From contig JAAVZE010000095.1 of the NCBI GenBank assembly GCA_022791495.1, forward strand, positions 1 through 53,151: DNA of 53,151 bases, given 5' to 3'. The notes under the pieces are model-generated. The model was not told the origin of the DNA and searched no databases. It was given only the letters and a program-made list of their open reading frames with translations. The DNA comes from Eubacterium sp. (GTDB lineage Bacteria > Bacillota > Clostridia > Lachnospirales > Lachnospiraceae). The position numbers and the translations under genes were made by a program. Positions 24,946 through 52,710 of this stretch are shown here, one piece after another. How positions within the stretch are numbered: position 1 is the first letter of the stretch; every line of letters begins with the position of its first letter.

Positions 24946-25067
24946 TACGGAATATTTACGGAAAATGTTTCTTCCAGATGGAAAAAATACGGAATAAATC
25001 CGTAAAATGTTGTTCAGATATTCCGTAAGAACTACGGAATAAGAAAAAAATACCGTAATACTTACGG
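24946..25067 (+). repeat. Phased TACGG/CCGTA repeat array 1 (candidate centromere parC / iterons)
   Basis: Eight copies of the 5-mer in four pairs, one helical turn or about one and a half apart: TACGG 24946 and 24957 (direct, 11 bp); TACGG 24988 with CCGTA 25000 (inverted, 12 bp); CCGTA 25023 with TACGG 25033 (inverted, 10 bp); CCGTA 25053 with TACGG 25063 (inverted, 10 bp). The extended consensus is wTTACGGAAAw or its reverse complement. It fills the gap between parM and the Rep-like gene, the expected place for a parC centromere and operator, or for replication iterons. The same motif and phasing recur at 44378-44607. Confidence 0.8.
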
Positions 25068-25089: not shown

Positions 25090-26175
25090 ATGGACTATTT
25101 AACTACCGGGAATACTATTGTAGATGAAGTTTCCAAGATCAATTTTAGCGGAGATATTACGCCACGGATATGGAGAAAAACCATAACGAAAGAAAATGGA
25201 AAGCCTTATGCCCTGGCAAGAGATATTCTGTCTGATATTGTTTACTGGTATCGTGCCATTGAGGAAATGGATGAAAAGACTGGAGAAATCCATTTGAAAA
25301 AGAAGTTTCATGATGATTTGCTGTACAAATCTTATGAACAGCTGTGTGAAGAGTTTGGGGAAAGTAAGCGTGTCATCCGGGATGTCTTGAAACGATTGGA
25401 GGAAATCGGCGTAATCAAACGTCATTTCCGCACGGTCACCACAAAGGGTGGGATGAAGATGAATAATGTTATGTACATAGAGTTAGTACCATCGGTATTG
25501 TATAAGCTGACTTATCCAGAGAGGTCAGCAGGTATCGTGGATTTTCCGCAGAAATCAGAAAAGGAAGAGAAAACAACGGAAAATAAGGCTTCGTTACCAC
25601 CTGATAACAAAAATGACAATAGGGTAGTGACAAAAACGTCACAACGTAATTCAAAGAATACTACAGAGAATACTAATAATTATAATATATCATATCCATC
25701 TATCCAGAGAGAAATCGAAGTACAAGGGGAAACCAGCCCTGCGGGCAGGATGGATGGGATAGATCGGATAAAGAACAAGAAAGAGAACGGTATTCCTGCA
25801 AGCGGGAAAAATGAATCCTATCCGCTGGAATGGATCAAGGACTGGTATGATTACAAATCGCTATGTGTGATGAAACCGGAGTTACAGCAGGATATCGACT
25901 GTGTTATCAATCTTCTTTACGACACATTGAACACGACCCGGAGGACAATCCGGGTAATGGGGGAAGAAAAGCCGAAAGACGTGGTGAATTCAAGGCTGCT
26001 GCAACTGGATTCCCTGGATTTGATATATGCGATTGAGCAGTACCAAAGCCAGACAACGAGGATAAGGCACCAGCAGTCCTATCTCCTGACCGTTTTGTAT
26101 CAAGCGAAGGGTCAGTCACATCTGGATATCGGAAATCAGGTAAAATACGACGCAGAGAAGAGGAAGGGAGAGTAG
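25090..26175 (+). CDS. Rep-like winged-helix protein, candidate replication initiator
   Basis: A 361-residue protein. The N-terminal third carries a winged helix (YKSYEQLCEEFGESKRVIRD, VLKRLEEIGVIKRHFR, residues ~80-120). A polar, Asn/Lys-rich linker (~155-245) follows. The C-terminal ~100 residues (TTRRTIRVMGEEKPKDVVNS, RLLQLDSLDLIYAIEQY, SYLLTVLYQAKG) resemble the DUF6017-like tail seen in Bacillota replication initiators and ICE proteins. It sits between parM and the ParR-like gene, right after the repeat array, a typical place for an iteron-binding initiator. Replication of the excised circle is the likely role. A transcription-regulator role cannot be excluded. Confidence 0.6.
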   Translation: MDYLTTGNTIVDEVSKINFSGDITPRIWRKTITKENGKPYALARDILSDIVYWYRAIEEMDEKTGEIHLKKKFHDDLLYKSYEQLCEEFGESKRVIRDVLKRLEEIGVIKRHFRTVTTKGGMKMNNVMYIELVPSVLYKLTYPERSAGIVDFPQKSEKEEKTTENKASLPPDNKNDNRVVTKTSQRNSKNTTENTNNYNISYPSIQREIEVQGETSPAGRMDGIDRIKNKKENGIPASGKNESYPLEWIKDWYDYKSLCVMKPELQQDIDCVINLLYDTLNTTRRTIRVMGEEKPKDVVNSRLLQLDSLDLIYAIEQYQSQTTRIRHQQSYLLTVLYQAKGQSHLDIGNQVKYDAEKRKGE

Positions 26176-26181
26176 GCAATC

Positions 26182-26571
26182 ATGAAAGCGGATGAGAAGG
26201 AAGTAAAGAGAAAAAGACTGGAGATATCCTTGAATCTGGATAACAAGGAGGATAGAGAGGTTTGGAATATCCTCAAAAAAAAGAAAAATATCAATGCGTA
26301 TTTCCGGCAGGCGGTTCTATATCAGGCAAAAGGGCAGCGTTTAGACTGGCAGACGGCACAGGATATCCGGGAAACAATTGAGAGAACAATAAAGGAAGTG
26401 CTTTCGTCCGGTTCTGTACCGATATTGTCGGAAAAGAAAGAACTTTTCCCGGAGATGGTGCAGGAAGAAGAGGGCTCAAGAAGTGAGGGAACATCGGAGG
26501 CTGTAATGCCAGAGACGGATGATGATTTTCTTGATTTAAGAGGGTTTGAAGATTTTTTGGGAGAAAAATAG
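26182..26571 (+). CDS. parR: ParR-like ribbon-helix-helix protein
   Basis: A 129-residue protein. The first ~50 residues (KRLEISLNLDNKEDREVWNI, then LKKKKNINAYFRQAVLYQ) have the beta-strand plus two-helix layout of ParR, whose RHH dimer binds centromere repeats in helical phase. The C-terminus is acidic and disordered with a short hydrophobic end (DDDFLDLRGFEDFLGEK), like the ParM-binding tail of ParR. It begins 6 bp after the Rep-like gene, so both share a transcript. It is the natural candidate to bind both TACGG/CCGTA arrays. The order parM-repeats-rep-parR is unusual, since parM and parR are normally adjacent. Confidence 0.7.
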   Translation: MKADEKEVKRKRLEISLNLDNKEDREVWNILKKKKNINAYFRQAVLYQAKGQRLDWQTAQDIRETIERTIKEVLSSGSVPILSEKKELFPEMVQEEEGSRSEGTSEAVMPETDDDFLDLRGFEDFLGEK

Positions 26572-27767: not shown

Positions 27768-27808
27768 ATAAAGTATAAGGATTATTGACAGAGAGAGGAG
27801 GGTTTCTT

Positions 27809-29081: not shown

Positions 29082-32000
29082 ATGATAAAAGCAGTAAAAC
29101 GAATCCTGGCGGGCCTGCTCATATCTGCCCTATTACTTGGAATATGCCCACAGATTGACAGTCAGGAAGCAAAAGCGGGAACGACGTATGACGTCTCCCT
29201 GAATCAGTTAGGGAAAAAGGGGGCATTTAAAGCAGGAACCAAAAGCAAAGGAAGCAATGACAACTGGTGGAAAATGACGGTAAACGGAAATTCTGCTTTC
29301 TGTCTTAACCTTGGGCTTACATGCCACTCTGGGGATACTTATGAAGAAAAAACCAGCGGTACATACAAAAGCCATGGATCCGGCGAAAAAGGACCATGGT
29401 ATGCTTGTATCGGTTACTGGTATGATGTGGTGCATAATCGGAGTAATAAAGCTTATCTGATGTCACAGGCGCTCACATGGACGATCGAAGAGGACGGCAC
29501 TTCAAAATCTGACCTTGTAAAAGCCATTCAAACAGTAAAAAATAACACGGGATGGTTCAGTAGCAAAACAGCAGAAGAACTGTATACGACTATCTTCCAG
29601 TATTTGGATTCTGATAAAGTCGAGGTGACGGCAGACTATACAAGATACGAATACACGGGAAACCAGAGTGGACAGAGGCAGGTGCTGATTAAATTAACAT
29701 CAAATCCTAATCCTACACCACCGGAATGGAAAACTTACAGCACATCCAAGCGTTACCGTCAGCGTATCACGTTGTATAAAAAGGACGAAGACGGAAATCC
29801 GCTTTCCAATGTCGAGTTTTCCTTGACAGTCAACAACGTGGATGAGTGTTACTATATCCTCTGCAATGGTGCAGGGGAAGCTACCGAGGAAACGGATTTC
29901 GGTTCTGCCAACACGGATTTCTTTACTACGACCAATACTACAGATGCCAGCGGAAGGCTGTACTACATCTTTGCGTTTCGACTACAGACAAAAGAGTATG
30001 GATATGTAGAAGAGGCTGTACTTGCCACAATGGATAACGACGCAAAGAAAAAGGTAAAGGCAGACATGGATGATGATGATGTGTCATACGGTTCCGGACT
30101 TACAAAAGCAGAAGCACAGGAGCTGGCAGCGGATGACCTTCAGAAACAGTTCAGCCAGATTTCAAATACTTTTGTTATCCAGGAGACAAATACCAATAAT
30201 GGAAATGTATTTATGGATCCTGAGTATGGTGTCGGTAAGACAGTCACGATAGAAGCTTCAAATTCATGGTTTCGGGATGATGCCAACGACTACTGGGAAG
30301 ATAAGCACTGGCAGGATGGCGGAAACGGAAACGCATGTGATTACACCAAGAATATCATTCTGAATATTCCGCAGCCTTACAAGCGTGTTTCCTACAAAAT
30401 CAAAAAGAATGATGATTACGCTACAGATAAGAAAGCCCACGGTGACGCTGTTTTGCAGGGAGCAATATACCAGCTGTATTCCGATGCGCCATGCACCGTA
30501 CCGGCAACGGTATACACGGATGAAAACGGAACATTTTCAGCAGAATGCCCGGTTCTGGTAACAGATCAGAATGGAGAGTTTACCACACCATATCTGCGGA
30601 GCGGTGTGACGTACTATCTGAAAGAGATCAAGCCATCAAGAGGCTATCTACTAAACGAAAATGCGATTCCGCTTCTTGCAGACGCATCTGACCGTACAGA
30701 GAAGGTTACGCCGACCAAAGAAACAATAGAGACGACAGAATCACCAATTCTTGGTTACATTGGGGTCTATAAGATTATTGGTAATGGTGGAGAGACCGGA
30801 AAAGCAAAATGGGAGCCAGGGGCACAGTTTAAGGTTTATCTCAAATCCAAAGGCAGTTATGACGCTTGCGATGACTACGAGAGGGATTTTATTACCGTGG
30901 GAGAAGATGGAAACGCCATTTCCCATAAGCTGTATTTTGGAACATATGTAGTAGAGCAGGTTAGTAACGGTGGTGAAGATACGGAACTGATCGGACATTA
31001 TGAAACGACAATTGAACAGCCGGAGCAGACAAATATTGACGTTATCATCAATGAGTTGTTCCGAGCCTACCTTCGTGTCGTGAAAAAGGATGGAAACACG
31101 GAAAAATCAGTTCTGAAACCTGGAACATCATACCAGATATACAAAGTCAAGGATTCGGGAGAAGAGGAACTTGTCACACAGAGTACCAGTAACGGTAACA
31201 AGGTGGAAACGTGTGATACATGGACGACGGATGAATCCGGTATCATAATGACCTATAAGGCATTAACATCCGGCAAATACCGTATCTATGAGACAAACAG
31301 TGCGACCGGGCTTCATATTACGAAAGAGTATATCGAAGTCGAGATTAACAGCAAGGCACAGAATTATGTCGTGGAAAACGATGGTATCGAAACAACATAT
31401 ACGGTTGTTGAAGTGGAATACGTAAACGATGAAACTCATGGCAGGCTTTCCCTGAAAAAGACCGGAGAGCAGCTAAGCGGTTTTACCAGAACCGTGGCTA
31501 CAGAAACTGGCAGTGTGGAGCTGCCTGTGGATACACTCTTCCCGGTAGCGGCTTCGGTTACTTCAAATAACAGCTTCCTATCCATAGTAAGTGGAAAATT
31601 CATATGGAAAGAAACAAGTATCAAAGGAGCAGTATTTGAAGTATATGCAAAAGAAAATATCGAAACGCAGGATGGACAAGGCGATTACTGGTTTAAGAAA
31701 GGAGATCTGGCAGCTACCATCACCACCGGCGAGGGGGCAGAGTTCACTTCAAAATGTGGCGGTATTACATCCTATGAGACGGATGAGGATGGAATCGTAA
31801 CCATTGATCTGCCACTCGGAAAATACAAGATCGTAGAAAAAGAAACGTTATACGGTTATGTATTGCCGGAGAAAAATGAATGGACGGTTGAATTCACGTG
31901 GAATAATAAAGATGAGATTTTTGTGTACGACAGTTCCGGAACAACAGACAAGAACGGTCTGCTCACTGTAAAAAATGAACGGGCAAAACCCGCACTTACG

Positions 32001-33593
32001 GTAGTAAAGGAGGACAGCAAGTCGGGAAAGTCAGTCAGTGAGGCAGTCTTTGGCTTGTATACCTCCCATGATATTTACAACGCAGAAGGAGAGGTGATCG
32101 TCAGGAAAGATAGCCTTTTAACGATGGTAACAACTGGCAGTGACGGAAAAGCTACGGTTGATAGTGACCTTCCGCTTATGAGTAAAGGGTATGAGCCGGA
32201 AACAGAAAGTGGATCGGATGCAGTAGAGAGTGACAAGAAGGAAGAGTTTTCTTCCCCGGAAGATAACGCTTTTTCTGGAAATAGATCTTCTGCGGAAGAT
32301 AAATCTGATGAAACCGATAAGGATTCTGAAACCGAAAATTCGGACGAGACCAAAAAAGATGATTCGGATACCAGGAAAGCACTCAATTCCGGAGACTACT
32401 ATTTTAAGGAAATCCGGATTCCCGACAGTTACTATCTGGATGAAACCCCGGTCAAGGTTCATTTGGAGTACAAGGACATGGAAACAAGGAAGATCGTGGT
32501 ATCTGCTGTCAAGAAAAACGAACAGACCGAAGTGGAGATTGATAAACTTACCCTTGCAGGAAGCGAGGAACTGCCGGGAGCTGCGTTGCAGCTGACGGAT
32601 AAAGAGGGGCGGGTTATCGTTACATGGATATCCGGAAATCCGGAATCTGTCCAGTTAATGGAGGAATCTGACAAGGCGGGCTACCGCAACCTGGCTGTAT
32701 CCATGACAGAAAAAGGAAATCTTTTGCTAAACGGTCTGCTGAAAGATACGGAGTATACCCTGACAGAAACAAAGCCGGCAGACGGTTATGCCACCGCTGA
32801 AAGCATTGTGTTCATGGTAACAGAAAATGCACTGGATAAAGGCAAATCAGTTATCCGAATAAAGAACAGCGAGGGAACATTCGATCAGCAGGAAACAAAT
32901 GTGGTAAAGATGTTTGATGATGTGACGAAAATAGACATATCAAAAACAGACATTACGGGAAGCGAAGAAATTCCGGGATGTGAGCTGACGGTAACGGATA
33001 AAGAAACCCAGACCGAGATTGAGACATGGATATCTACAAAAGAAGTACACCGTATTGAAAAACTGGTAGTGGGAAGAACCTATACGCTGACAGAAAAACG
33101 TCCGGCGAAAGGTTATGTAACTGCCGCCAGCATTGATTTTGTCATTCAGGACACGGGCGAGGTACAGTCCTGTGGCATGAAGGATGATACAACGAAGATA
33201 CGGTTTATTAAACTTGCCGGAGATACCGGTCAGGGATTGCCAGGAGCTGTATATCAGGTTCTAGATTCGGAAGATAACGTGGTTCTGGAATTCAAATCCA
33301 ATGAAGATGGTTTTGATATCATCGGGAAACTGGCGGTAGGAGAGACATATGTTTTCCATGAGGTATCAGCTCCAGAAGGCTATAAACTGGCAGAGGATGT
33401 GGAACTTGTAGTAGAAGATACCGCAGAAATTCAGGAAGTAAGTGCAACAGATGAGGCGATCGAGATTCCACCGGTGCCACAGACTGGTGGAACAACACCG
33501 CTTGTTCTTTCCGCATTATTCCTACTTGCTTGTTCCGGTGCGTGGTTTGGTATATCCAGAAAGAAAAGGATCACTGCCCATGAAAAACAGTAA
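29082..33593 (+). CDS. Thioester/Cna-B-repeat surface adhesin with sortase signal (SpaA-like)
   Basis: A 1503-residue wall-anchored protein. Signal peptide ~1-32. An N-terminal thioester domain follows, with Cys74 (SAFCLNLG) and the SQALTW motif (Gln129), the pair forming a Cys-Gln thioester that can bond covalently to host or cell-surface amines. About nine Cna-B/SpaA isopeptide domains follow (starts near residues 227, 435, 558, 660, 786, 970, 1152, 1283 and 1373), many with Lys in VxKxD and Glu in E.xAPxGY-type strands. An acidic Ser/Asp/Glu-rich insert interrupts one (~1033-1100). The C-terminus has VPQTGG near residue 1465, a hydrophobic helix and a basic tail. The class B sortase overlaps its 3' end. 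It may promote host adhesion or mating contacts. Confidence 0.9.
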   Translation: MIKAVKRILAGLLISALLLGICPQIDSQEAKAGTTYDVSLNQLGKKGAFKAGTKSKGSNDNWWKMTVNGNSAFCLNLGLTCHSGDTYEEKTSGTYKSHGSGEKGPWYACIGYWYDVVHNRSNKAYLMSQALTWTIEEDGTSKSDLVKAIQTVKNNTGWFSSKTAEELYTTIFQYLDSDKVEVTADYTRYEYTGNQSGQRQVLIKLTSNPNPTPPEWKTYSTSKRYRQRITLYKKDEDGNPLSNVEFSLTVNNVDECYYILCNGAGEATEETDFGSANTDFFTTTNTTDASGRLYYIFAFRLQTKEYGYVEEAVLATMDNDAKKKVKADMDDDDVSYGSGLTKAEAQELAADDLQKQFSQISNTFVIQETNTNNGNVFMDPEYGVGKTVTIEASNSWFRDDANDYWEDKHWQDGGNGNACDYTKNIILNIPQPYKRVSYKIKKNDDYATDKKAHGDAVLQGAIYQLYSDAPCTVPATVYTDENGTFSAECPVLVTDQNGEFTTPYLRSGVTYYLKEIKPSRGYLLNENAIPLLADASDRTEKVTPTKETIETTESPILGYIGVYKIIGNGGETGKAKWEPGAQFKVYLKSKGSYDACDDYERDFITVGEDGNAISHKLYFGTYVVEQVSNGGEDTELIGHYETTIEQPEQTNIDVIINELFRAYLRVVKKDGNTEKSVLKPGTSYQIYKVKDSGEEELVTQSTSNGNKVETCDTWTTDESGIIMTYKALTSGKYRIYETNSATGLHITKEYIEVEINSKAQNYVVENDGIETTYTVVEVEYVNDETHGRLSLKKTGEQLSGFTRTVATETGSVELPVDTLFPVAASVTSNNSFLSIVSGKFIWKETSIKGAVFEVYAKENIETQDGQGDYWFKKGDLAATITTGEGAEFTSKCGGITSYETDEDGIVTIDLPLGKYKIVEKETLYGYVLPEKNEWTVEFTWNNKDEIFVYDSSGTTDKNGLLTVKNERAKPALTVVKEDSKSGKSVSEAVFGLYTSHDIYNAEGEVIVRKDSLLTMVTTGSDGKATVDSDLPLMSKGYEPETESGSDAVESDKKEEFSSPEDNAFSGNRSSAEDKSDETDKDSETENSDETKKDDSDTRKALNSGDYYFKEIRIPDSYYLDETPVKVHLEYKDMETRKIVVSAVKKNEQTEVEIDKLTLAGSEELPGAALQLTDKEGRVIVTWISGNPESVQLMEESDKAGYRNLAVSMTEKGNLLLNGLLKDTEYTLTETKPADGYATAESIVFMVTENALDKGKSVIRIKNSEGTFDQQETNVVKMFDDVTKIDISKTDITGSEEIPGCELTVTDKETQTEIETWISTKEVHRIEKLVVGRTYTLTEKRPAKGYVTAASIDFVIQDTGEVQSCGMKDDTTKIRFIKLAGDTGQGLPGAVYQVLDSEDNVVLEFKSNEDGFDIIGKLAVGETYVFHEVSAPEGYKLAEDVELVVEDTAEIQEVSATDEAIEIPPVPQTGGTTPLVLSALFLLACSGAWFGISRKKRITAHEKQ

Positions 33594-34359
33594 TGTATCA
33601 AAAGCAGGATACACGGAAAAAAACTGCAAGGGAAAGGGGAGAAGGTTCCTTCTCCTTTTTCTTGCGGTTCTTACCGTGACAGCAGGAATCTTTTTCAGTG
33701 TATGCTATATTACGGAAATAAGGGCGGAAAAAATGATGTCAGAACGGAAGAAAAGTTCCGGAGAAATTGACTGGGCAGAAGACATGATTGGATGGATCCA
33801 GATTCCGCATACTTCCATATCCTATCCGGTCATGCAGCGAAAGGATGATCCGGAGTACTATCTGCACCGGGATGTGGATGGCGGGTACAGTTTTTATGGG
33901 ACACCGTTTCTTGACGGACGGTGCAGAACAGACAGCGATAATCTGCTTATTTACGGTCATAACATCAATGGAAGACGCTTTTTCGGTGCGTTGCAGAATT
34001 TCAGGGAGAAATCCTATTTTGATTCGCACCTTGATCTTATTTTTACAACAAGACAAGCGGTAGAGACATACCGTATTGTGTCAGTGATTGAAACAGATGT
34101 TTCTTCACTGGCATTTTCTTTTGCTGATACCTATAACGAAAACGACTACCGGAAATATGGTACTTATCTTATAGAAAAATCAAAATTTACGACAAATGAA
34201 CAAGAGAAACTGTTAGAGGAATTTAATCAGGAAAAGGAAATATGGCATACGTATCAGTTTATTACGTTGTCCACGTGCCGGACGTTTGAAGGAAAGGAAA
34301 AACGTCTTCTGGTTGTGGCATATCGGGAAAGGAATGAGGATTATGAATCTGAAAAATGA
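33580..34359 (+). CDS. srtB: Class B sortase
   Basis: A 259-residue membrane-anchored transpeptidase. A transmembrane helix spans ~22-44. The catalytic domain contains the active-site His in NLLIYGHNING, Cys in ITLSTCRTF (TLSTC motif, residue ~229) and Arg in KRLLVVAYRER. It cuts sorting signals such as the PQTGG of the adjacent adhesin and links the protein to the wall or a pilus. ATG 33580 is chosen since AAAGGA lies 9 bp upstream; it overlaps the adhesin's last codons by 14 bp, so substrate and enzyme are translated together. Confidence 0.92.
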   Translation: MKNSNVSKAGYTEKNCKGKGRRFLLLFLAVLTVTAGIFFSVCYITEIRAEKMMSERKKSSGEIDWAEDMIGWIQIPHTSISYPVMQRKDDPEYYLHRDVDGGYSFYGTPFLDGRCRTDSDNLLIYGHNINGRRFFGALQNFREKSYFDSHLDLIFTTRQAVETYRIVSVIETDVSSLAFSFADTYNENDYRKYGTYLIEKSKFTTNEQEKLLEEFNQEKEIWHTYQFITLSTCRTFEGKEKRLLVVAYRERNEDYESEK

Positions 34360-36703: not shown

Positions 36704-36848
36704 TAGGCAGGAAAATGAAGAAATGATGGAGAGGTTTATGCAGGAAAATGGCCTGGTGTTTGGTATCCCGGAAGAATTCCGGGATGAAACGCCGGAGGGA
36801 GGCATGGTTCATGATTGGGATGGGGGTATGACTAATGGCACAGAGTAA
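36696..36848 (+). CDS. Small hypothetical protein bridging PrgI and the ArdC-like gene
   Basis: A 50-residue acidic protein (MDNRQENEEMMERFMQENGL, then VFGIPEEFRDETPEGG). It starts 8 bp inside prgI and ends 14 bp inside the next gene, a sign of translational coupling. AAAGGAGAG lies ~9 bp upstream. No family recognised; absence of hydrophobic segments suggests a cytosolic product. Confidence 0.5.
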   Translation: MDNRQENEEMMERFMQENGLVFGIPEEFRDETPEGGMVHDWDGGMTNGTE

Positions 36849-39156
36849 GATGCGGAAAGAAATGATCGATGCTTTTCTGAACGCCTTGCAGGAAGATAAA
36901 ATTCCGTGGCATAAGTCTTGGTCTGCCTTACAGATGATGCCTCCACGCAACGCAGTGAGAGATACGGAGTATCGGGGCGTGAATCGTTTCTGGCTGTTTC
37001 ATATAGCGGAACAAAACGGGTATTCTGACCCTCGCTGGTGTACATTTAAGCAGGCAAAGGACAACCACTGGCATGTAAAAAAAGGTGAGAAAGGTACACA
37101 TGTTGAATTCTGGTCGTTGTATGACCGGAAAATAAAAAAGACAATCGACGATAAAGAGGCTGACAGCCTCCGGCAACAGCTTACGCCAGAGGAATATTCA
37201 GAGAGGGTAAAACCGGTAGCGAATAACTATACGGTGTTCAATGCAGAGCAGATCGAGGGAATCCCGAAACTTCCGGAACCTGAACTACAGACGTATGAAC
37301 TTGATGAGGACGAGATTATTCGAACGAGGGCGGTTCTGTTAGAGAACATGGCTGTTCATTTTCAAGAGGGTGGTGAAAAAGCCTTTTATCGTCCGGCGGA
37401 AGACTGCATCCATCTTCCGGAAATCAAGCGGTTTGAAAGCGAATACGATTATATGGCTACTCTGCTGCATGAAGCAGGACACGCAACCGGGCATGAGAGC
37501 AGACTTAGGCGTCCGATACTGAATACATTTGGCACGCCAAATTACGCAAAAGAGGAACTCCGTGCCGAGATTGCCTCTGCCTTTACTGCGCAGACGCTGC
37601 ATCTTTCCCAGAGCGGCAGCCATATGGAAAACCATAAGGCATATATCCAAAGCTGGATAAAAATACTGAAGAATGAACCAGATGAGCTGTTCCGAGCGAT
37701 CAGAGAGGCAGAAAAGATTTCTGACTATCTGATTGAAAAAGGAGAATTTGCTCTGGAGCATTCCAAAGAGAAGGACATTTCGCTCCAGAAGGAAAAAAGT
37801 TTCGGTGAGCAGGTCGATGAAGTGCTTAGTGGTAAGGCAAACCGTTATGACGATTTGAAGGTATGCGATACGCCACAGATATTATTGGATGCAGGATGTG
37901 AGCAACTCCCGATGTTATATACGAAAGCACATCTGCGAAAAGCACTTTTACCGAAAGATGCAAAAAGACACAATCATGGTCTGGATGTTGAGCAGATTAA
38001 AAGGCTGCCGGAGTATATGCCGGAACCAGTCATGCTCATTGATTCATCGACCAGAGAGGACAGCATTATCATTGTGCTTTCCGTTCTGGATAACGAAAAA
38101 AGTCCGTTGGTTGCTACCGTAAGACCGAACGGAAAGGGTACATACAACCTGGAGGTTCAGGATTCTAATTTTATAACCAGTGTTTATGGCAGGGATAATT
38201 TTGAACAATTTCTAAATCTGTCGCTGGAAAATAATATGGTGTTGTATTGGAATAAAACTAAAAGTCAAGAGTTGTTCAGTGTGCTTGGGCTACAATTCCC
38301 CGAGGGCTTAAACAACCTTGACTATAATAGTATTATACACCAAAGCAATAACATTGTCAAAAAAAATCATTCTGAACTTTTAGACGAAGTAGCAAAGCTG
38401 GAAGAAACCTTGTATATACCGCATAGGGAACGTATTACGGAGTGGTTCGGTGATTATGCAATAAATATAGCAAAGCATGGAGTGACGGAAGAGGATTTGT
38501 GAAACAGAAGAGAAAAACTTTATGCACTGCGGGCAGAACCGATTGTGGCGGAATATGCTGCGAACGGTTATGAGCCATATCTCGGAGTACACAGCGAGAG
38601 GCAGGAAGAACTAATCAATGAACTGACACAACTGGAAAAGGATACGTTTGTCCCAATCGAAGAGCGATTTTCCAGTACCTTACAGAAAATGACGGAAGAG
38701 GAATTGAACAACCGGATTGATTTTTTGAAACAATACCGGATTCCTTTGGTGTCGTTTCAGGAAATGGCAAAATTACGAATTGATGCAAAACGAGGGTTAC
38801 TTAGCGATTTCGACTACTACGCTTCGTTATCTTCATCAGAGAAAGATATACTGGGAGTAATGGAATGGATCGAGCTTTACAGAAAGCAGGGGATTTCTGA
38901 TGAAGAGATTATTTTATCACATCTGGACGAAATCCACTCCCGGTGTGGACATGACAGCTATGATTATACAAAAAATCTTGTTTGTAGTGCATGTTCCCGT
39001 GACCGGGGCGAGTATTACAAGAGAATCTCCCTGGCAGATTCCGTGGAGCATGAAAGGCAGATGCAGAAACGTCTATCCTCTCTGGCTGAAGAATTAGTCC
39101 AGATGGAGCAGCTGAGAATAAATGAAAGGAGTATTGAGAATGGCAAAAAGAGATAA
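36835..39156 (+). pseudogene. ArdC-like antirestriction/zincin protein gene interrupted by an in-frame TGA
   Basis: Residues 1-110 match the ArdC N-terminal ssDNA-binding domain (MRKEMIDAFLNALQEDKIPW, then HKSW, YRGVNRFWL and KGTHVEFW). A zincin-like domain follows with HEAGHATGHESR, the HExxH motif plus third ligand region. An accessory C-terminal region runs from ~320. At codon 556 (38500-38502) there is TGA, after which the same frame continues (NRREKLYALRAEPIVAEYAA) for 218 more codons to 39156, in family-like sequence. Ignoring the stop the protein would be ~773 residues. The N-terminal 555 residues keep both catalytic domains, so the truncated product may still work. ArdC proteins protect incoming DNA from restriction. 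Confidence 0.8.
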
Positions 39157-44089: not shown

Positions 44090-44374
44090 ATGTCAGGCAT
44101 GAATTTTAGTGAAAAGGATTTTATGGAAAAGCTGGACTGGGAATGGGAAGAGTTTTCCTGCAACGTAACCAGTTTGTCCAGGGAGAATATTTTTTCCCTG
44201 GCGGAAATGGTGGCAGATAAGAAACATATTTATGAAACACTGAAAAAAGTTTCACAGTTTTCAGCAGAACAACTACACCTTATGTATCGGATGGAACATA
44301 CGATAGATACGCTATATATCCGTCTGCCAAAGCACCATCTGGACTTGGCAGACGGAATAAAAAAGATATTGTAA
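44090..44374 (+). CDS. Small helical hypothetical protein at the end of the transfer operon
   Basis: A 94-residue all-helical cytosolic protein (MSGMNFSEKDFMEKLDWEWE to the LDLADGIKKIL end). No family recognised with confidence. AAAGGAG lies ~9 bp before ATG. It is the last gene before oriT; a perfect 12-bp inverted repeat overlaps its stop codon (44371-44402). Confidence 0.55.
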   Translation: MSGMNFSEKDFMEKLDWEWEEFSCNVTSLSRENIFSLAEMVADKKHIYETLKKVSQFSAEQLHLMYRMEHTIDTLYIRLPKHHLDLADGIKKIL

Positions 44375-44377
44375 AAT

Positions 44378-44607
44378 TACGGGGTTTTTCCGTAATTTTA
44401 CAAGGTATCAGAGGGTTTTAGGGAAACTTCCCTAACAAGACGGCATTTTGTATATACAAAATGCGTGTCTTGCCATTCACAATCAGCACAAATATAACGT
44501 ACTTTTTACGGAAAATGAGGAAAAATCCCGTAAAGATTACGGAAATAAGAAGCAAATTCCGTAAAAATACCGTAAGATAACCTTTGGATTTTCCGTAAAA
44601 AGTACGG
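44378..44607 (+). repeat. Phased TACGG/CCGTA repeat array 2, around oriT
   Basis: Nine copies of the 5-mer, same motif as at 24946-25067: TACGG 44378 with CCGTA 44390 (within a 12-bp perfect inverted repeat GTAAAATTACGG/CCGTAATTTTAC); TACGG 44507; CCGTA 44528 with TACGG 44538 (10 bp); CCGTA 44559 and 44570 (direct, 11 bp); CCGTA 44593 with TACGG 44603 (10 bp). It fills the region between the transfer operon and mobC, so the same DNA-binding protein likely acts here and at array 1. The first pair may also serve as an operon-end hairpin. Confidence 0.8.
44436..44474 (+). other. Candidate origin of transfer (oriT)
   Basis: A 22-bp perfect palindrome with arms GCATTTTGTAT/ATACAAAATGC (44443-44464), extended by CAAGAC (44436-44441) pairing with GTCTTG (44467-44472) after a small bulge, then CC. 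A stem next to GTCTTG-CC resembles MOBP nick regions of the (Y)YTG-C type; the nick is probably within or next to TCTTGC at 44468-44473. It lies just upstream of mobC and relaxase, where oriT is expected. The nick position is inference. Confidence 0.7.
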
Positions 44608-44649: not shown

Positions 44650-44982
44650 ATGAGAACGGAAAAGCGTACTGAAATATTGCTGGTTCGTCTGACAAAAAAG
44701 GAAAAGGAATCTCTTAATCAGTTGGCAAAAGAGAACGGACAAAATGTCAGTTCATATGTGAGGACAATCCTTGCACGTCCGCCGGACGTCACCAGAAAAG
44801 AATTCGAGGAAATGAGCCTTCGTCTGGTTTATGAAATAAATAAGATCGGTGTCAATATTAACCAGATAGCGAAAAAGTATAATGAATACCGTCTTACGAA
44901 GGCAAGCAGGGATGTGATGGATAGGATGAAAGAAATCCGTGAGCTGCTGAACGAAGTGATCCGTACGTTTCATTCGGACTAG
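44650..44982 (+). CDS. mobC: MobC-like relaxosome accessory protein
   Basis: A 110-residue protein. The N-terminus (TEILLVRLTKKEKESLNQLA, then NGQNVSSYVRTIL) is a ribbon-helix-helix-like DNA-binding fold; the C-terminal half (LRLVYEINKIGVNINQIAKK and DRMKEIRELLNEVIR) is the typical MobC helical region with the N-I-N-Q motif. It helps the relaxase to melt oriT. It starts ~40 bp after the last repeat in array 2 and precedes the relaxase by 14 bp. RBS AAGGAAAGGA upstream. Confidence 0.88.
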   Translation: MRTEKRTEILLVRLTKKEKESLNQLAKENGQNVSSYVRTILARPPDVTRKEFEEMSLRLVYEINKIGVNINQIAKKYNEYRLTKASRDVMDRMKEIRELLNEVIRTFHSD

Positions 44983-44996
44983 AGAAGGAGGTTCTT

Positions 44997-46340
44997 ATGT
45001 CGATCATAATTAAGATGGGACAACCCATCGGGACAGAATCCCATCTGAAACGGGCAATTGGCTATGTTATGCAGGAGTGGAAAACGGAGGGAAGGGTGTA
45101 CAGCAACAGCGGTGTGACACCAGAAGAGGTAATAGATACCTTTTTTCTCACAAAAAAAGTATACCCTTCTCATGGGAAAAGGCAAGGCTATCACTGGAAG
45201 TTTTCTTTTTCCAAAGATGAAACGATTTCCCATGACGATGCTTTGAACTTTATCAAAGAATGGGCGGAGGAATATTTGGGCGGGGGGTATGATTTTGTGG
45301 TGGCAGAACACAGCGACCGGGAACTTACCCATATGCACCTCATTTTTAATTCGGTAAAAAGAGGCGGTGGAAAATATCATTATGGAAAAGATGAATGGGA
45401 AAAGGTAATAAAGCCGCTGACAAATCGTATATGTGACAAATATCATACCGGGTATGTCAAAGAAAAAGACAAGACATTGGATTATTCCCCAGAGAAAGAC
45501 TGGAAATCGGAAATAGAAGAGACAATAGACCGATGTATCGAGGTCAGTAAATCGTATGCGGATTTTAAATCCCGGTTGCAGCGTGATTTTCATTATTCCG
45601 TTCGGGAAGGAGTATCAAAGGATTATGGTGTTTACTTATCATTAAAACCGCCAGGGAAGGGAAAAGCGGTTCGGTCGTACAGGCTGTCTCCTGGCTACAT
45701 GCCAGAAGACATTGAACGGAAGATCATGGAGTGTCTTTTAAAGCCAAAGAACGTTTTGGAGGCAAAAAGTGATAATTCCGATCACAAAATGAATACACAG
45801 CAAAGGGAGGAAAACAGAGAAATCTTTTGCGTAATATTTCGCCAGGGCAAAGATTTTTTTAGGGATGGATATTTTCGCCGGGCGTATATTCCTTATAAAA
45901 ACCTTTCTTCTTATCAGCAGTATTTTGTAAGAAGGATGTTGTCGGCAAGAAGATTGTATCACCGAACCGGGACAACGCTTAAAGAGCATGAACAAAGTGT
46001 CCGTGCCATCCATCACATGATGAACGAAGTAGGTGAACTGTATAAGCATAATATTCGTTCAGAACATAATCTGTCAGAAACAATATTTGAACTGCAGAAA
46101 CAGATTACCTTTACCGAACATCGTCTTTCCAGTGGTACGATACCAGCAGAAAGGGAAGCAGATGTGGCAGATCAGATCAAACGATGGAAAACGGAGCTGT
46201 CGGAATTAAAAAAGATGAAAAAGCAGGATGTTCCGAAAAAAAGTGAAAAGGAAATATCCGATCAGGAGATTGCAGAACTGGATCAGCAAGAATCCCTGAT
46301 TTCCAGAAAGGAGAAATCACATGACGGACGAACAAAGTAA
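44997..46340 (+). CDS. Relaxase/mobilisation nuclease (MOBP-like)
   Basis: A 447-residue transesterase that nicks oriT. Motif III is EHSDRELTHMHLIFNSV (residues ~104-120, metal-binding histidines H-x-D-x-x-x-T-H-x-H), preceded by GYHWKFSFSKDE. The likely catalytic tyrosine lies in the N-terminal part (AIGYVM, Tyr24, or the Tyr at RVYSNS). The C-terminal half is helical and may bind the T4CP. GAAGGAGG is ~6 bp upstream. The next gene begins 20 bp before its stop. Confidence 0.88.
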   Translation: MSIIIKMGQPIGTESHLKRAIGYVMQEWKTEGRVYSNSGVTPEEVIDTFFLTKKVYPSHGKRQGYHWKFSFSKDETISHDDALNFIKEWAEEYLGGGYDFVVAEHSDRELTHMHLIFNSVKRGGGKYHYGKDEWEKVIKPLTNRICDKYHTGYVKEKDKTLDYSPEKDWKSEIEETIDRCIEVSKSYADFKSRLQRDFHYSVREGVSKDYGVYLSLKPPGKGKAVRSYRLSPGYMPEDIERKIMECLLKPKNVLEAKSDNSDHKMNTQQREENREIFCVIFRQGKDFFRDGYFRRAYIPYKNLSSYQQYFVRRMLSARRLYHRTGTTLKEHEQSVRAIHHMMNEVGELYKHNIRSEHNLSETIFELQKQITFTEHRLSSGTIPAEREADVADQIKRWKTELSELKKMKKQDVPKKSEKEISDQEIAELDQQESLISRKEKSHDGRTK

Positions 46341-47212: not shown

Positions 47213-49273
47213 ATGAGTGAAGAAGTACAAACTATGGTGCAGGTACTGGAACTGACCGGAAGGGGATTATCCGGGTTGATGAAGGGAATCCGTTTATCAG
47301 CAAAAGGAGTATCAAAGGGTGCCGATTTAATTGATTTAAAACGGATGCAGCTAAAAATGAAACTCCATTATGCCAGTACTGGAACACATGACACAATGCT
47401 GGTAAAAGATTTGGAAAAGCTGACGGGCGGTCAGTATGACATATTAAACATACCGTTTGAAGATGAAAAATCGCTTATCGGCTTTTATGACAGACTGAAA
47501 AAATTAAATGTTTCGTTTGCTGAATTGCCGGACTTAAACCTTGGTGACGGATATACCCAGATCGCCTATAACCCGCCGGACGCTGACCGGATTAAGACAG
47601 TAGTGGAATATTATAAAGATAAGCTGGAAGTGGAAGCGGCAGAAATCAATCTGGAGCAATATGTGAGAATGGGAGATGAAAAAGCACAGCAGGTATTAAA
47701 CGAACTGGCGGAAAAGGGGTATCAGCAGGAAACACAAATGAATCTTTTGCAGAAGATACGTGAGCGTAACAAAGATGATAATTATGTTCCGATCAGCATT
47801 GATATTGAAACATTATTAATGAGAGAAGATAAAGACAGTTATCTCTGCTATGTACCGGGAACAAAACATAAGCAGACGATGACAGTAAAAAAAGAAGATT
47901 GTCTTCTGTTTGATGACAGAAAGGTTATCTATACCCACTTACGAAAAGATGATCCAGCAGCTAAAAATATCAAGGGAAATTATAATAAAGTGGTTGCAAA
48001 GTATAGGAAAATGTCTGAACGAACAAGACTAGATGCGACGGAGATTCTACCGGATTTTAATATGGGGAAGGAGTCCAAAAAGAAGCCTTCCCCAGAAAAA
48101 GAAATGACTGAACCAAACGAGAAGAAAAAACAGCAAAATGCAGACGAAAAGAATCGCCCGGAAAGAGATAAAGTACATAATGCGTCTGAACCAGAAGTTG
48201 CGAAAGAAAAAGAGCCTGATGTAAAGGATACCAACAAAACAAACAGCAAAAAATTTAAAGATAAAGAAGAGACGAAAAGTGGACATGACTTTTGGCAGAA
48301 TACTTCGTATAAACGATCTTATGCTGAGAAAGAAAATGCTACTTCCCGTCAGGAATATAAAAAAGCGAAAGGTGGGCATGACTTTCAGCAGAATACTTCA
48401 TATAAACGATCTTATACAGAAAAAGAAGATGTCGTTTTGCAGCAGGAAAGTAAAGAAAATGGGAAAAAAGGTCTGAAACTGATTCATCAAAAAATTGATG
48501 ATGACCAATATTTACATTTTACAGCGGAACTGGATGGAACAGAAATTGCTGGAACTTTCCGGATATGCAATCCCAAGGATGGAGCGGATTTTGAACTGGT
48601 CAGTCTGCAAAGTAAGATTTTCAATGATAACGGAAAAAATAAATCTTTTAGCGGTGAGCAGTGGGATTTTATTGAACAAGAATTAAAGGAAAAGACCTGG
48701 AGCCATTATGAATCTATACAAAAAAATAAGGAACAAGAGAAAACTCTGCAACAGGAAAAGAGTAAAGGTTCCGTTCCAAACAGCCAAGAGGAACCACTAA
48801 GACTAGAGATGAAAAGTGAGGCAGAAAAAACAATAGAAACGGTTATGTACCGGGAAGCCATAAAAGAAAAGGCGGGTAAAAATAATTATTTTCCGGTTAC
48901 CATTAATCTGGAGAAACAACTTGTGGCAGAAAGTCCGGGTTTATATATTGTAAAACTTCCAGAAGAGGGGCCGGTGGAGCAGAAGGGAGAAACTGCCCGT
49001 TTATTTTCGATTTCCAAAAGGGACGCGATAATAAGTGAAGATGGAAAACAGGCACAGATTTTTCTTGATAAGGAGGGGAAAATGGAGATTTCTCTTCACG
49101 ATATAAAAAGCGGAAAGCGAAAATCGGATATTCTGATGAACAATGAGGAAATCGCTAAAAGTTTTGTAGATAAGAAAACAGTTGCTAATGAAGATGGAGT
49201 GTTGCGGAAAAGTGTGGAACTGGTAAAAGAGAATATTCCGCAAAATCCGATACAAGGAGGGAAGAAAATATGA
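47213..49273 (+). CDS. pcfB: PcfB/DUF3801-like protein with long repeat-bearing C-terminal extension
   Basis: A 686-residue protein. Residues ~1-145 match the PcfB/DUF3801 family (GRGLSGLMKGIRLSAKGVSK, KDLEKLTGGQYDILNIPFED), normally ~150 residues; pCF10 PcfB helps the coupling protein PcfC at the membrane. Most of the length is an added region: a charged, disordered linker (~285-410) with two 31-residue tandem repeats (GHDFWQNTSYKRSYAEKEN and GHDFQQNTSYKRSYTEKED), then two beta-rich modules. Its stop overlaps the T4CP start (ATGA), consistent with PcfB-PcfC partnership. The extension's role is unknown. Confidence 0.72.
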   Translation: MSEEVQTMVQVLELTGRGLSGLMKGIRLSAKGVSKGADLIDLKRMQLKMKLHYASTGTHDTMLVKDLEKLTGGQYDILNIPFEDEKSLIGFYDRLKKLNVSFAELPDLNLGDGYTQIAYNPPDADRIKTVVEYYKDKLEVEAAEINLEQYVRMGDEKAQQVLNELAEKGYQQETQMNLLQKIRERNKDDNYVPISIDIETLLMREDKDSYLCYVPGTKHKQTMTVKKEDCLLFDDRKVIYTHLRKDDPAAKNIKGNYNKVVAKYRKMSERTRLDATEILPDFNMGKESKKKPSPEKEMTEPNEKKKQQNADEKNRPERDKVHNASEPEVAKEKEPDVKDTNKTNSKKFKDKEETKSGHDFWQNTSYKRSYAEKENATSRQEYKKAKGGHDFQQNTSYKRSYTEKEDVVLQQESKENGKKGLKLIHQKIDDDQYLHFTAELDGTEIAGTFRICNPKDGADFELVSLQSKIFNDNGKNKSFSGEQWDFIEQELKEKTWSHYESIQKNKEQEKTLQQEKSKGSVPNSQEEPLRLEMKSEAEKTIETVMYREAIKEKAGKNNYFPVTINLEKQLVAESPGLYIVKLPEEGPVEQKGETARLFSISKRDAIISEDGKQAQIFLDKEGKMEISLHDIKSGKRKSDILMNNEEIAKSFVDKKTVANEDGVLRKSVELVKENIPQNPIQGGKKI
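48281..48466 (+). repeat. 93-bp tandem duplication inside the PcfB-like gene
   Basis: Two in-frame units (48281-48373 and 48374-48466, 31 codons each) with high identity (shared CATGACTTT.CAGAATACTTC and TATAAACGATCTTAT blocks). Both encode GHDF-x-QNTSYKRSY. Divergence at several positions shows the copy is not brand new. Confidence 0.8.
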
Positions 49274-51492
49274 GTAAAGTAGTAAGGAGTATTATGGATA
49301 TCCGGAGGTTAAGATTGCGGAATTTTCTAATTATCTGTTTAATTTTTCTTCCGGTATGGTTATATATATCTTTCTGTGCCAGTGGATTGCTTATGAGTGA
49401 AATCAAACTGGATAACATGATCGAAACGTATGAGTGGTGTTTGAGGCATCCTTTACAGTGCTATAACGAGAAAAGTATGGGGATTGTTCTTTCAGCATTG
49501 CTGTTATGGGCAATATTTGTGTTCACGCAATATTTAAAAATGAATAATACGCTTATGCACGGACAAGAGTATGGTGCTGCCAAGTGGGGAAGCATACCTG
49601 CATTTAATGCGAAATACGCAACGGAGACAGAAGGAGATAACAAGGTGTTGTCCAGAAATATACGTTTCAGGTATGATGAATCTACACTCCGGAATGGAAA
49701 TATATTTGTGGTTGGTGGTTCTGGGGCAGGGAAAACTTCTTTTTTTCTGACACCAAATCTACTGCGGGGTCACGGTTCTAACGTATATACTGATCCAAAA
49801 GGAAGTTTGTTGGAAGAGTTGGGAACGTTTTTGACAAAGCAAAAAGACACAATTGTTTGTGTTATTAATCTTTGTGAAATGGAGAAGAGCATGCGAATCA
49901 ATCCATTTTTATTCTTACGAACCCAGATGGATGTCAGTAAGCTGATTTCCAACCTGATCCAGAATACGAACAGTGAAAATATTCAAAATTCAACTGCCGA
50001 CCCATTTTGGGAAAAAGCTGAAATTGTATTTTTAGAGAGTATTTTCTTTTATGTCTGGCTACAATGTCCACAAACATTTGTAAATGAAAGAGGTAAGTCG
50101 ATTCGTCTGGAAAAAGATATGCGTTCAGTGTTATATTTACTGGAGGAAGCAGAGATAAAGTCCGCAGACATACCTACTGCGCTGGATAAACGAATATCAG
50201 CGTTGGAAGCCAGGCAGCCCGACCATCCAGCAGTGAAATCTTATAAGAGATTCAGAAGTGGTGCTGTTGAAACCAAACGCAGTGTTCTCATGACCGTCAA
50301 TGCAAGAATGCAACCATTTGATAATCCAGAGCTTTTGAATATTTTTTCAGGAAATGATATTCCACTAAATGAGATCGGAACGGGCAGTGACGGTGATGGA
50401 AGGACTAAAATTAACTTATTTATTGTTATTCCGGACAATGATACAACTTATAACTTTGTTCCGGGAATGATTTACACACTGTTACTGGAAAATTTGTATT
50501 ACCAGGCAAGGTTATACGGTGGGCGGTTGCCAATAGATGTGGGGTTCTGGCTGGATGAGTTTGCGAATACAAAAATGCCGGCAAACTTCGATAAAGTTCT
50601 TGCTACCTGCCGAAGCAGGGGGATTTACTGTGTTCCCATGCTCCAGTCCCTTGCACAGATAAAACAGCTGTTCAAAGATGGTGCATGGGAAGGTGTGGTA
50701 GGGAACTGCGACACATTTATTTACCTTGGTGGAAATGAACAAAGTACTTTTGAGTACATAACGAAACTTTTAGGCAAGTGGACAATCGACAAAAAGACGA
50801 GCGGGGAGAGCAGGGGTACGTCAGGTTCATATAGTGAAAATATGGATGTGCTTGGTCGTGAACTGATGATGGAGTATGAGGTAAGACTTCTCCCGCAGGA
50901 TGAGTGTATAGTTTTCGTCCGTGGGGAAGAACCGCTTCGGGACAAAAAGTGGTTTCCGTGGGAGTATGAAGAATATAAGAACGCAAAATCTTATGGTATT
51001 TATCAAAAGCCAGATTTGGGTTCATTGGATAATAAGGATGTTTGCAGGATTGTAAATCAGGAAAGTATGGATTATCTGAAAAAACTTACGGAAAAGGGTG
51101 AGAATATAGACATTTATAGCATTGATGTTTTAGATTTTATGAAAATGGACCTGGATCAGTTAGGAAGACAGCTGGATCAGGAGATAAAGGTGGAAGGAAC
51201 TGATATTTCTCTGGAACGCTTGCAGGAAGTCTGTTTCAGGGAACAGGAAGAGAAAAAGAAGCAGCAGTATCATGAATTTCTACAAGAATATGACAATATG
51301 ACGTTGTTTGAAGTATATTCTTCAGATTTTGTCAGTAGTACAAGGAAAGATGTGATACAGGAGTTGAGGAAATTACAGATACCGGAAACGGATATAAAGT
51401 CCCTTATTGCTCCAGATTATACAGAAGAAGAGGTTTTGCAAAAGAAAAATGCCTATCTTACGTTTCAGAAATTGTCACCAGTACAGAATTAA
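49270..51492 (+). CDS. virD4: VirD4/TraG-type conjugative coupling protein (T4CP)
   Basis: A 740-residue membrane ATPase. Two N-terminal transmembrane helices (~17-42 and ~73-93). Walker A IFVVGGSGAGKTSFFLTPNL near residues 145-165, followed by VYTDPKGSLLEELG. The Walker B region is LPIDVGFWLDEFANTKMPAN (~422-440). The C-terminal ~150 residues are an extra helical tail beyond the minimal T4CP core (Glu/Lys-rich, 590-740), probably a substrate-recognition domain. It brings the relaxase-DNA complex to the VirB4 channel. PcfC/TraG-like by context (after pcfB). A hairpin at 51478-51504 overlaps its stop. Confidence 0.92.
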   Translation: MSKVVRSIMDIRRLRLRNFLIICLIFLPVWLYISFCASGLLMSEIKLDNMIETYEWCLRHPLQCYNEKSMGIVLSALLLWAIFVFTQYLKMNNTLMHGQEYGAAKWGSIPAFNAKYATETEGDNKVLSRNIRFRYDESTLRNGNIFVVGGSGAGKTSFFLTPNLLRGHGSNVYTDPKGSLLEELGTFLTKQKDTIVCVINLCEMEKSMRINPFLFLRTQMDVSKLISNLIQNTNSENIQNSTADPFWEKAEIVFLESIFFYVWLQCPQTFVNERGKSIRLEKDMRSVLYLLEEAEIKSADIPTALDKRISALEARQPDHPAVKSYKRFRSGAVETKRSVLMTVNARMQPFDNPELLNIFSGNDIPLNEIGTGSDGDGRTKINLFIVIPDNDTTYNFVPGMIYTLLLENLYYQARLYGGRLPIDVGFWLDEFANTKMPANFDKVLATCRSRGIYCVPMLQSLAQIKQLFKDGAWEGVVGNCDTFIYLGGNEQSTFEYITKLLGKWTIDKKTSGESRGTSGSYSENMDVLGRELMMEYEVRLLPQDECIVFVRGEEPLRDKKWFPWEYEEYKNAKSYGIYQKPDLGSLDNKDVCRIVNQESMDYLKKLTEKGENIDIYSIDVLDFMKMDLDQLGRQLDQEIKVEGTDISLERLQEVCFREQEEKKKQQYHEFLQEYDNMTLFEVYSSDFVSSTRKDVIQELRKLQIPETDIKSLIAPDYTEEEVLQKKNAYLTFQKLSPVQN

Positions 51493-51583: not shown

Positions 51584-51669
51584 ATAAAAAGATGTAGATA
51601 CAATATTTGTTCAAATAGTTTTTGTATTAGATTATAGGAATGTATACAGTAGGAAAAGGAGCATGTCGC

Positions 51670-52710
51670 ATGAAGGGGTATCGACAACTAAACTACGAAG
51701 ACCGTCTTATTTTTGAAAAGTTGTTAAGAGCTGGAATCAAAAAAGGAGAAATTGCAAAACGCTTACATATCCACAAAAATACGGTAACAAATGAAATCAA
51801 ACGGGGGCGTTATCTTCATCGAAACTCGGATTATACGGAAGAGTATCGTTATTCTGCTGATCTAGCAGAGAAACATTATCAGGACAATGTAAAAATGCGG
51901 GGGACACAGTTGAAAATAGCGAAGGACTATGAGTACGCAAAGTATCTTGAGAACCGGATAGCAGATGACGATTTTTCTCCTTCGGCTGTCTTGGGGGAAC
52001 TGGAGGCAACCGGAAGAGATAAGGAATATAAGACGAAAATATGCGTTACTACATTATACAGCTACATTGATAAAGGTGTCTTTTTAAAATTGACGAATAA
52101 GGATCTTCCGGTAAAGGGGAAGAGAAAACGTAAGTACCATAAAGTAAAACGCCAGAAAAGGGCAAGTGCAGGAAAGAGCATAACCGAACGCCACGCAGAG
52201 GCAGAAGACCGGGAAGAGTTTGGACATTGGGAAATGGATACCGTCATCGGGAAACAGAAAGTAAGCAAAAATACACTTCTTGTTCTTACAGAACGGAAAA
52301 CAAGGCAAGAGCTTCTTTTTAAAATGCCAACCCACGAAGCAAAAGAGGTAGTAGAAAAACTGAATTTTTTGGAAGTACTTTGGGAAGATAAGTTTCCAAA
52401 GGTATTTAAAAGCATTACAGTAGATAATGGTAGCGAGTTTGCTTATAATGAAGAAATGGAAAAATCTATTTTTGGTGGCAAGCGGACAAGCATCTACTAC
52501 TGTCACGCATACAGCAGTTGGGAACGTGGATCAAATGAGAACCAGAACAAACTGGTAAGAAGAAAGATTCCAAAGGGTAGTGATTTTGATAATAAGTCAG
52601 CCGAAGATATATCCAATATTGAACACTGGATAAATCATTATCCTAGAAAGATATTTGGTTTTCATACATCTGCTGAACTGTTTGATAAGGAAGTTGCTAT
52701 GATTACATAA
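51670..52710 (+). CDS. IS30-family DDE transposase at the right end of the element
   Basis: A 346-residue transposase. The N-terminus holds an IS30-type HTH (LNYEDRLIFEKLLRAGIKKG, then EIAKRLHIHKNTVTNEIKRG). The DDE triad: Asp190 in FGHWEMDTVIG, Asp252 in ITVDNGSEF, Glu290 in SWERGSNENQNKLVRRKIPK. All are the family's canonical motifs, and the length is standard, so it looks active. ATG 51670 follows AAAAGGAGC by 8 bp. It occupies the place, next to the T4CP and the element's right boundary, where Tn1549-like ICEs carry xis/int. A plain IS insertion is the alternative: a weak inverted similarity exists between about 51603-51632 and 52750-52795. Confidence 0.9.
   Translation: MKGYRQLNYEDRLIFEKLLRAGIKKGEIAKRLHIHKNTVTNEIKRGRYLHRNSDYTEEYRYSADLAEKHYQDNVKMRGTQLKIAKDYEYAKYLENRIADDDFSPSAVLGELEATGRDKEYKTKICVTTLYSYIDKGVFLKLTNKDLPVKGKRKRKYHKVKRQKRASAGKSITERHAEAEDREEFGHWEMDTVIGKQKVSKNTLLVLTERKTRQELLFKMPTHEAKEVVEKLNFLEVLWEDKFPKVFKSITVDNGSEFAYNEEMEKSIFGGKRTSIYYCHAYSSWERGSNENQNKLVRRKIPKGSDFDNKSAEDISNIEHWINHYPRKIFGFHTSAELFDKEVAMIT

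Follow-up and report, generated by a model that had tools for sequence, protein, structure and literature searches.

On plasmid R388, the plasmid-encoded DNA-binding protein StbA acts on repeats in the vicinity of oriT and influences stability as well as conjugation, and the available text of that report also places its 9-bp motif at further promoters (PMC3098194). In the SXT/R391 elements, srpC of the srpMRC system lies in the srpM–mobI intergenic region, to which oriT has also been mapped, and SrpR is described in the accessible part of the source as binding the oriT fragment non-specifically only (PMC4489591). For plasmid R1, ParM and ParR stimulate the relaxase, R1 ParR showing no specific oriT binding in the portion of the paper that is available (PMC4949242). 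Among the literature matches listed, taken as titles and abstract openings and with subscription papers mostly outside, we found no ParM-type centromere array described at the oriT of a Firmicutes element. Our comparison of a 53,151-nucleotide stretch of Eubacterium sp. DNA (hereafter the window) with its relatives suggests that a ParR-like ribbon-helix-helix (RHH) protein reads two arrays of the same motif, one between parM and rep (array 1) and one at oriT (array 2).

The element carrying these arrays appears to be integrated in the chromosome, since chromosomal-type genes (flagellar, RecD2, Mrp antiporter) lie to its left; its ends were not found. Its rep gene stands between parM and parR, and its oriT is of the MobC/relaxase type, with a hairpin, a nic-like box and adjoining mobC and relaxase genes all present and the nic itself predicted (Table 1); we take the nic to lie in this box from its resemblance to IncP-type nic sites. 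Also inside the element are a CAP/SpaA protein (27785-28822), a large SpaA-repeat surface protein (29082-33593) and a sortase (33442-34359), for which relatives have counterparts, and an ArdC N-terminal antirestriction domain with zincin and MuF-C domains (36835-38502). An IS30-family transposase (51640-52710) lies 3' of the coupling protein gene, and a 91% identical protein occupies the same place in the sister element G777.

Table 1. Features of the element, in window coordinates
Feature	Position	Strand	Basis or remark
ParM-like actin ATPase, 303 aa	24031..24942	+	Pfam ALP_N 3e-16, MreB-like_C 6e-11; PDB plasmid ParMs by sequence, best 1.3e-6
Array 1: 8 TACGG/CCGTA half-sites; candidate second ParR centromere/operator	24946..25067	.	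Conserved in L052, L053
Rep-like protein, C-terminal DUF6017	25090..26175	+	Pfam DUF6017 2e-17
ParR-like RHH protein, proposed reader of both arrays	26182..26571	+	Profile match to parM-adjacent ParRs
Hairpin with one TACGG/CCGTA pair, at the end of the upstream ORF	44369..44403	.	Present in G777, sequence altered
oriT hairpin arms TTAGGGAA/TTCCCTAA	44418..44435	.	Relatives have similar arms
oriT palindrome GCATTTTGTAT/ATACAAAATGC	44443..44464	.	
nic-like box GTGTCTTGC	44465..44473	+	G777 identical; GTATCTTGC in G465, G709
Array 2 main part: 7 TACGG/CCGTA half-sites, starts 33 bp 3' of nic-like box	44507..44607	.	G777: same motif, 11 half-sites
MobC/NikA-type RHH relaxosome protein	44650..44982	+	Pfam NikA-like 3e-12, MobC 6e-10
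Relaxase	44997..46340	+	Pfam Relaxase 7e-24
Coupling protein (VirD4/TraG type)	49270..51492	+	Pfam T4SS-DNA_transf 2e-47

The sequence-only reading of this DNA had claimed that the same TACGG/CCGTA half-sites, spaced 10-12 bp apart, make up both arrays, and both parts of that claim are borne out. Counted strictly, there are 8 half-sites in array 1 and 9 in array 2 as a whole (44378-44607), where the highest count per 125 bp in 100 Markov-1 sequences was 4 and, among the 25 densest 125-bp stretches listed for the window, those outside the arrays hold at most 2. With up to one mismatch, TTACGGAAA occurs 41 times in the window against a shuffle mean of 15.0 and a largest shuffle value of 26; lone exact copies lie additionally at 8793, 33710 and 51086. 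Half-site centres are spaced 11, 31, 12, 23, 10, 20 and 10 bp in array 1 and 12, 117, 21, 10, 21, 11, 23 and 10 bp in array 2, which fits a period of ~10.5 bp in both. Phase concentration at 10.5 bp reaches R=0.75 (p 0.037) in array 1 and R=0.86 (p 0.019) in the main part of array 2, and in the sister elements the corresponding p values are 0.001 for array 2 of G777 and 0.06 each for array 1 of G777 and G798. Array 1 lies between the parM-like and rep-like genes. The sequence-only description of array 2 needs correcting, as it is no single block: a hairpin with one half-site pair is followed by an oriT core without half-sites and then by the main array.

We also searched the draft host genome (2.9 Mb, 201 contigs, 83% complete) with two half-site patterns. 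TACGGA-N4-26-TACGG was found at 36 places, 7 of them inside the two arrays and the others scattered singly, and CCGTA-N3-7-TACGG at 14 places per strand (4 in the arrays, 1 at window position 6602 and 9 singles elsewhere). Neither pattern is enriched genome-wide, reversed-pattern controls being higher (58 in all and 32 per strand, respectively), so their significance rests on clustering. No half-site cluster beyond the two arrays was found in the window, nor, with these two patterns, in the draft genome, in line with the earlier expectation that only two exist.

Both arrays are retained in one sister element (L053/L054, genome G777; Rep 80% and relaxase 77% identical), where array 1 holds 8 half-sites and the main part of array 2 holds 11; another (L052, whose genome is G776 and G798; Rep 91%) retains array 1, its oriT region not having been found. 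Alignment of the sisters shows that half-sites were kept although spacers and some half-site orientations changed, and half-sites that flip in place are what one would expect if the sites are read on a single face of the helix. Part of the flank comparison drew on plus-strand loci (such as L054 and L056) and on L052/L053. Several more distant relatives share the transfer genes. Of these, G809 and G811 have ParM, Rep and ParR-like genes and no array 1, their parM–rep gaps measuring 11 bp and 4 bp, and carry oriT arrays of TACACA and TACATA, respectively. G465, G709 and G905 retain the ParR-like protein and an oriT array, of TTGTAC in the first two and TGGTACC in the third; ParM was not found in the 35-40 kb at these elements, G465 having one on another contig. 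G465 and G709 carry a ParB-like gene (by eye) and a different rep gene, within which lie iteron-like repeats (G709 C12 ~71660; G465 C8 ~65200). In G871, ParR was not found in 55 kb and oriT has just two palindromes, and G674 has a TGCAC array at oriT, with none seen at its parM loci. An oriT array is thus the usual one, and array 1 is a second copy special to the window lineage (the window and two sister elements).

These relatives also speak to the idea that both arrays serve as iterons for the Rep-like protein, which would so couple replication initiation to oriT. Although array 1 directly precedes rep, the Rep family of the window recurs in G809 and G811, where rep has no array and the oriT motif differs, and the repeats internal to the other rep gene of G465 and G709 are unlike the oriT motif of those elements. 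Both comparisons disfavour Rep as the reader, which we consider very improbable.

The ParR-like protein has no significant match in a Pfam search, and its AlphaFold model is poor (pLDDT 47). It matches a profile of the relatives' ParRs encoded beside parM with a probability of 93.9 (E 1.5e-7), as against 1-6 for MobC; the ParRs of L114, L119 and L140 were excluded from the profile and that of L114 from the ParR search model. Judged as a type II ParMRC system, the window has an actin-like ParM ATPase (Pfam ALP_N; plasmid ParM structures by sequence) and, by the profile match, an RHH adaptor encoded with parM, rep intervening; no repeat centromere was found upstream of parM, the 700 bp 5' of the gene holding 3 motif matches where 3.2 are expected. 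The par system of the window is a variant of type II ParMRC rather than a plain member, with arrays downstream of parM and at oriT. In other ParM elements, GTACGGC/GCCGTAC-like repeats occur near parM, the more usual place of parC (L045, 1221-1430; the parM flank of L024).

That a single RHH protein acts on both arrays had been proposed from the outset, with the ParR-like and MobC-like proteins as candidates; comparison with relatives makes this the best-supported reading and favours the ParR-like protein. Across 38 elements (703 pairs, a motif being counted as shared at a 6-mer cosine of at least 0.5), all 11 pairs with ParR at least 70% identical share the motif, although these reduce to six independent groups, as against 0/35 pairs with MobC at least 70% and ParR below 70% identical, one of which has 99% identical MobC proteins, and 0/601 pairs with both below 60%. 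L113 and L121, for example, have a motif cosine of 0.98 at 99% ParR, 84% MobC and 79% relaxase identity. L113 and L115 differ in motif (cosine 0.27; ParR 52%) at 88% ParM identity, so ParM alone is no explanation. The motifs of G465 and G709 look alike by eye and were counted as not shared (cosine 0.38; ParR 53%).

Partial Mantel tests on hand-trimmed RHH segments (n=32, without L114, L119, L133, L142, L143, L150, G674 and G699) gave 0.236 (p 0.0005) for ParR given MobC and 0.011 (p 0.43) for MobC given ParR. With full-length proteins (n=38), the values were 0.175 (p 0.001) for ParR given relaxase and 0.058 (p 0.22) for relaxase given ParR. Full-length tests separate ParR only weakly from MobC (0.186, p 0.0005 vs 0.100, p 0.076; after dereplication to n=33, 0.154, p 0.009 vs 0.140, p 0.026) and from ParM (0.151, p 0.022 vs 0.145, p 0.039). 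Aligned by hand on the Arc pattern, the RHH strand residues of ParR follow the motif, with E-S/C-N accompanying TACGG, Q-V-N TACACA, N-V-N TACATA, R-T-N TTGTAC and K-T-N TGGTACC, and those of MobC do not; between G809 and G811 they are unchanged, despite a one-base difference in motif. By sequence, the oriT motif follows ParR rather than MobC or the relaxase. MobC might still read array 2 within a relaxosome accessory complex, the resemblance to an array 1 read by ParR or Rep arising by chance, given that it is an RHH protein encoded adjoining array 2 and keeps a signal in the dereplicated Mantel test; the 0/35 pairs and the unchanged strand residues disfavour it as the reader, and we regard this as improbable.

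The link between the ParR-like protein and oriT becomes directly testable in a natural switch between G561 (L111) and G648 (L141). Their MobC, relaxase (partial) and ParM proteins are 99%, 96% and 90% identical, their oriT cores agree at 127/129 positions (98%), and the DNA preceding the array is 88% identical. The ParR proteins are 65% identical (64% by blastp, the lowest value in the gene table), with the N-terminal strand altered and the C-terminal tail largely conserved, the L141 sequence containing a few ambiguous residues. The array segments are 67% identical, where shuffled DNA gives 60% (sd 2.4), and their motifs differ, AACTGA occurring 7 times in G561 vs once in G648 and CTATCA 0 vs 5 times.

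We hypothesize that ParR-like dimers occupy the half-sites along one face of the helix and thereby build a partition-type complex, and we think it probable that both arrays belong to this protein and form such complexes at oriT and at the parM–rep locus. The relatives' array lies near oriT and not at parM, which argues that oriT carries a centromere-like site, likely read by ParR; in the window lineage a further array of this motif stands between parM and rep. With arrays at both places, the ParM–ParR machine would hold the excised circle at oriT, beside the relaxosome, and at the rep locus, either coupling segregation to transfer or providing two centromeres per circle. From this arrangement we infer that ParR binds the arrays, that ParM attaches at oriT, and that retention, transfer or mob and rep transcription are affected.

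Alternatively, the ParR-like protein could act on both arrays solely as an ArtA-like transcriptional regulator that represses the rep–parR and mob operons together, neither array being a centromere. The rep start lies 22 bp beyond the end of array 1, and the mobC start 42 bp beyond that of array 2; however, reading by eye placed the array of five other elements upstream of the oriT hairpin, with at least one further ORF standing between array and mobC. Terminator-like matches exceed shuffles in both array regions (3 vs 0.1; 4 vs 0.3), as inverted half-sites alone would yield, whereas promoter-like matches are near chance (1 vs 0.8; 2 vs 0.8). The protein and its array persist in the three elements where ParM was not found, and RHH regulation of tra and segregation genes is known from pSK41 ArtA, as the available text describes it (PMC6540685). 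Long phased arrays would nevertheless exceed the needs of a simple operator, and we consider regulation alone unlikely.

How far the partition-type arrangement extends was surveyed in 397 family genomes, from which elements with ParM and a relaxase on one contig were picked by hand, the 31 non-window elements being chosen among the matches listed. Stretches without MobC were excluded, namely L145-L149 (three elements; no MobC match) of 40 and L349 and L352 of 20 further ones. The array score is a per-6-mer value, uncorrected for the number of 6-mers, with a cut-off of -5, and beyond the window family arrays were read by eye in selected elements only. An array scoring -5 or better lies within 2.5 kb upstream of mobC in 30 of the 35 ParM-bearing elements; the oriT hairpin pattern was detected in 13/32 only, so that for many others 'near oriT' means upstream of mobC. 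Four compact ParM-bearing elements (L119, L142, L143 and L150) have parR directly before mobC, and among them only L142 reaches the cut-off. We extend the reading tentatively to a broad group of Lachnospiraceae elements, in which the oriT-side array may be the ParM centromere, one ParR complex may serve segregation and the relaxosome, and ParR specificity and the oriT array may switch jointly, the window lineage being a two-site circle.

Of 21 loci in which parMR was not found within the stretch, six carry another RHH gene next to oriT, upstream of mobC (G699, G925, L346, L354, L355 and L356, L354 and L355 coming from a single genome; the count omits G674 and G798_C58, array-scored but outside the parMR search). 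These proteins match MobC with a probability of 78 and ParR with 68, and that of G925, where the array is below the cut-off, was also matched by the ParR model; in the 35 ParM-bearing elements, a model of the oriT-side RHH proteins matched MobC itself and nothing else. In the 15 remaining loci the search found no parMR and no other RHH gene on the array side, yet 10 of them still scored an array, six of the ten being stretches below 10 kb and L347, L350, L358 and L363 spanning at least 17 kb. That the oriT array and the par locus generally have a motif in common was rejected on two tests. Motif sharing in the 600 bp before mobC exceeded a score of 3 in the window and G777 alone, and more than 3 motif matches per 150 bp within 700 bp of parM occurred only in the window, L142 and L150 (32 elements; L119 and L143 without motif), parM lying so close to mobC in the latter two that its flank overlaps the oriT region. 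Viral contigs searched with ParM, relaxase and Rep queries gave no relative, and at least 120 stretches in them match the half-site pattern; in plasmid and phage records, Rep matches cover <80% of the query and four relaxase matches are 25-26% identical.

If ParR reads both arrays, inheritance would be tied to transfer. This bears on how mobile elements balance vertical against horizontal spread: in many Firmicutes elements, the transfer region appears to carry the imprint of a segregation adaptor's specificity. The link between ParR and its array may also bear on the incompatibility of coexisting elements.

Among known systems, R388 StbA/stbDR is alike in its repeats near oriT and in the proposed link between stability and conjugation, the likeness being one of description (PMC3098194). 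In contrast, StbB, the ParA-like neighbour of StbA, is dispensable for stability according to the available text (PMC3098194), whereas here the proposed reader is the ParR of an actin-type system, and the second site in the window is a full array at parM–rep. The SXT/R391 srpMRC system is likewise of ParM/ParR type and borne on an integrative element, but srpC, as its source describes it, is upstream of srpM (PMC4489591), whereas array 2 flanks oriT ~19.5 kb from parM. Like the protein proposed here, pSK41 ArtA is a single RHH protein whose sites lie at both transfer and segregation genes; unlike a partition adaptor, it is presented in the accessible text as a regulator of transcription that has six binding sites (PMC6540685). 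Similarly, the partition-related ParR and ParB of NAH7 increase transfer, through binding at the oriT region or activation of transfer genes, although that system is described as type I, its ParR being a KorA homologue rather than an RHH partner of ParM (PMC12421886). With the ParMRC systems of Clostridium perfringens pCW3 (PMC9426499) and R1 (PMC4949242), as the available parts of these reports portray them, the window shares a ParM-like actin, an RHH-type ParR and family-specific repeat sites. Contrasting with plasmid ParMRC, where parC is usually upstream of parM, the window places its arrays at oriT and between parM and rep, with rep splitting parM from parR.
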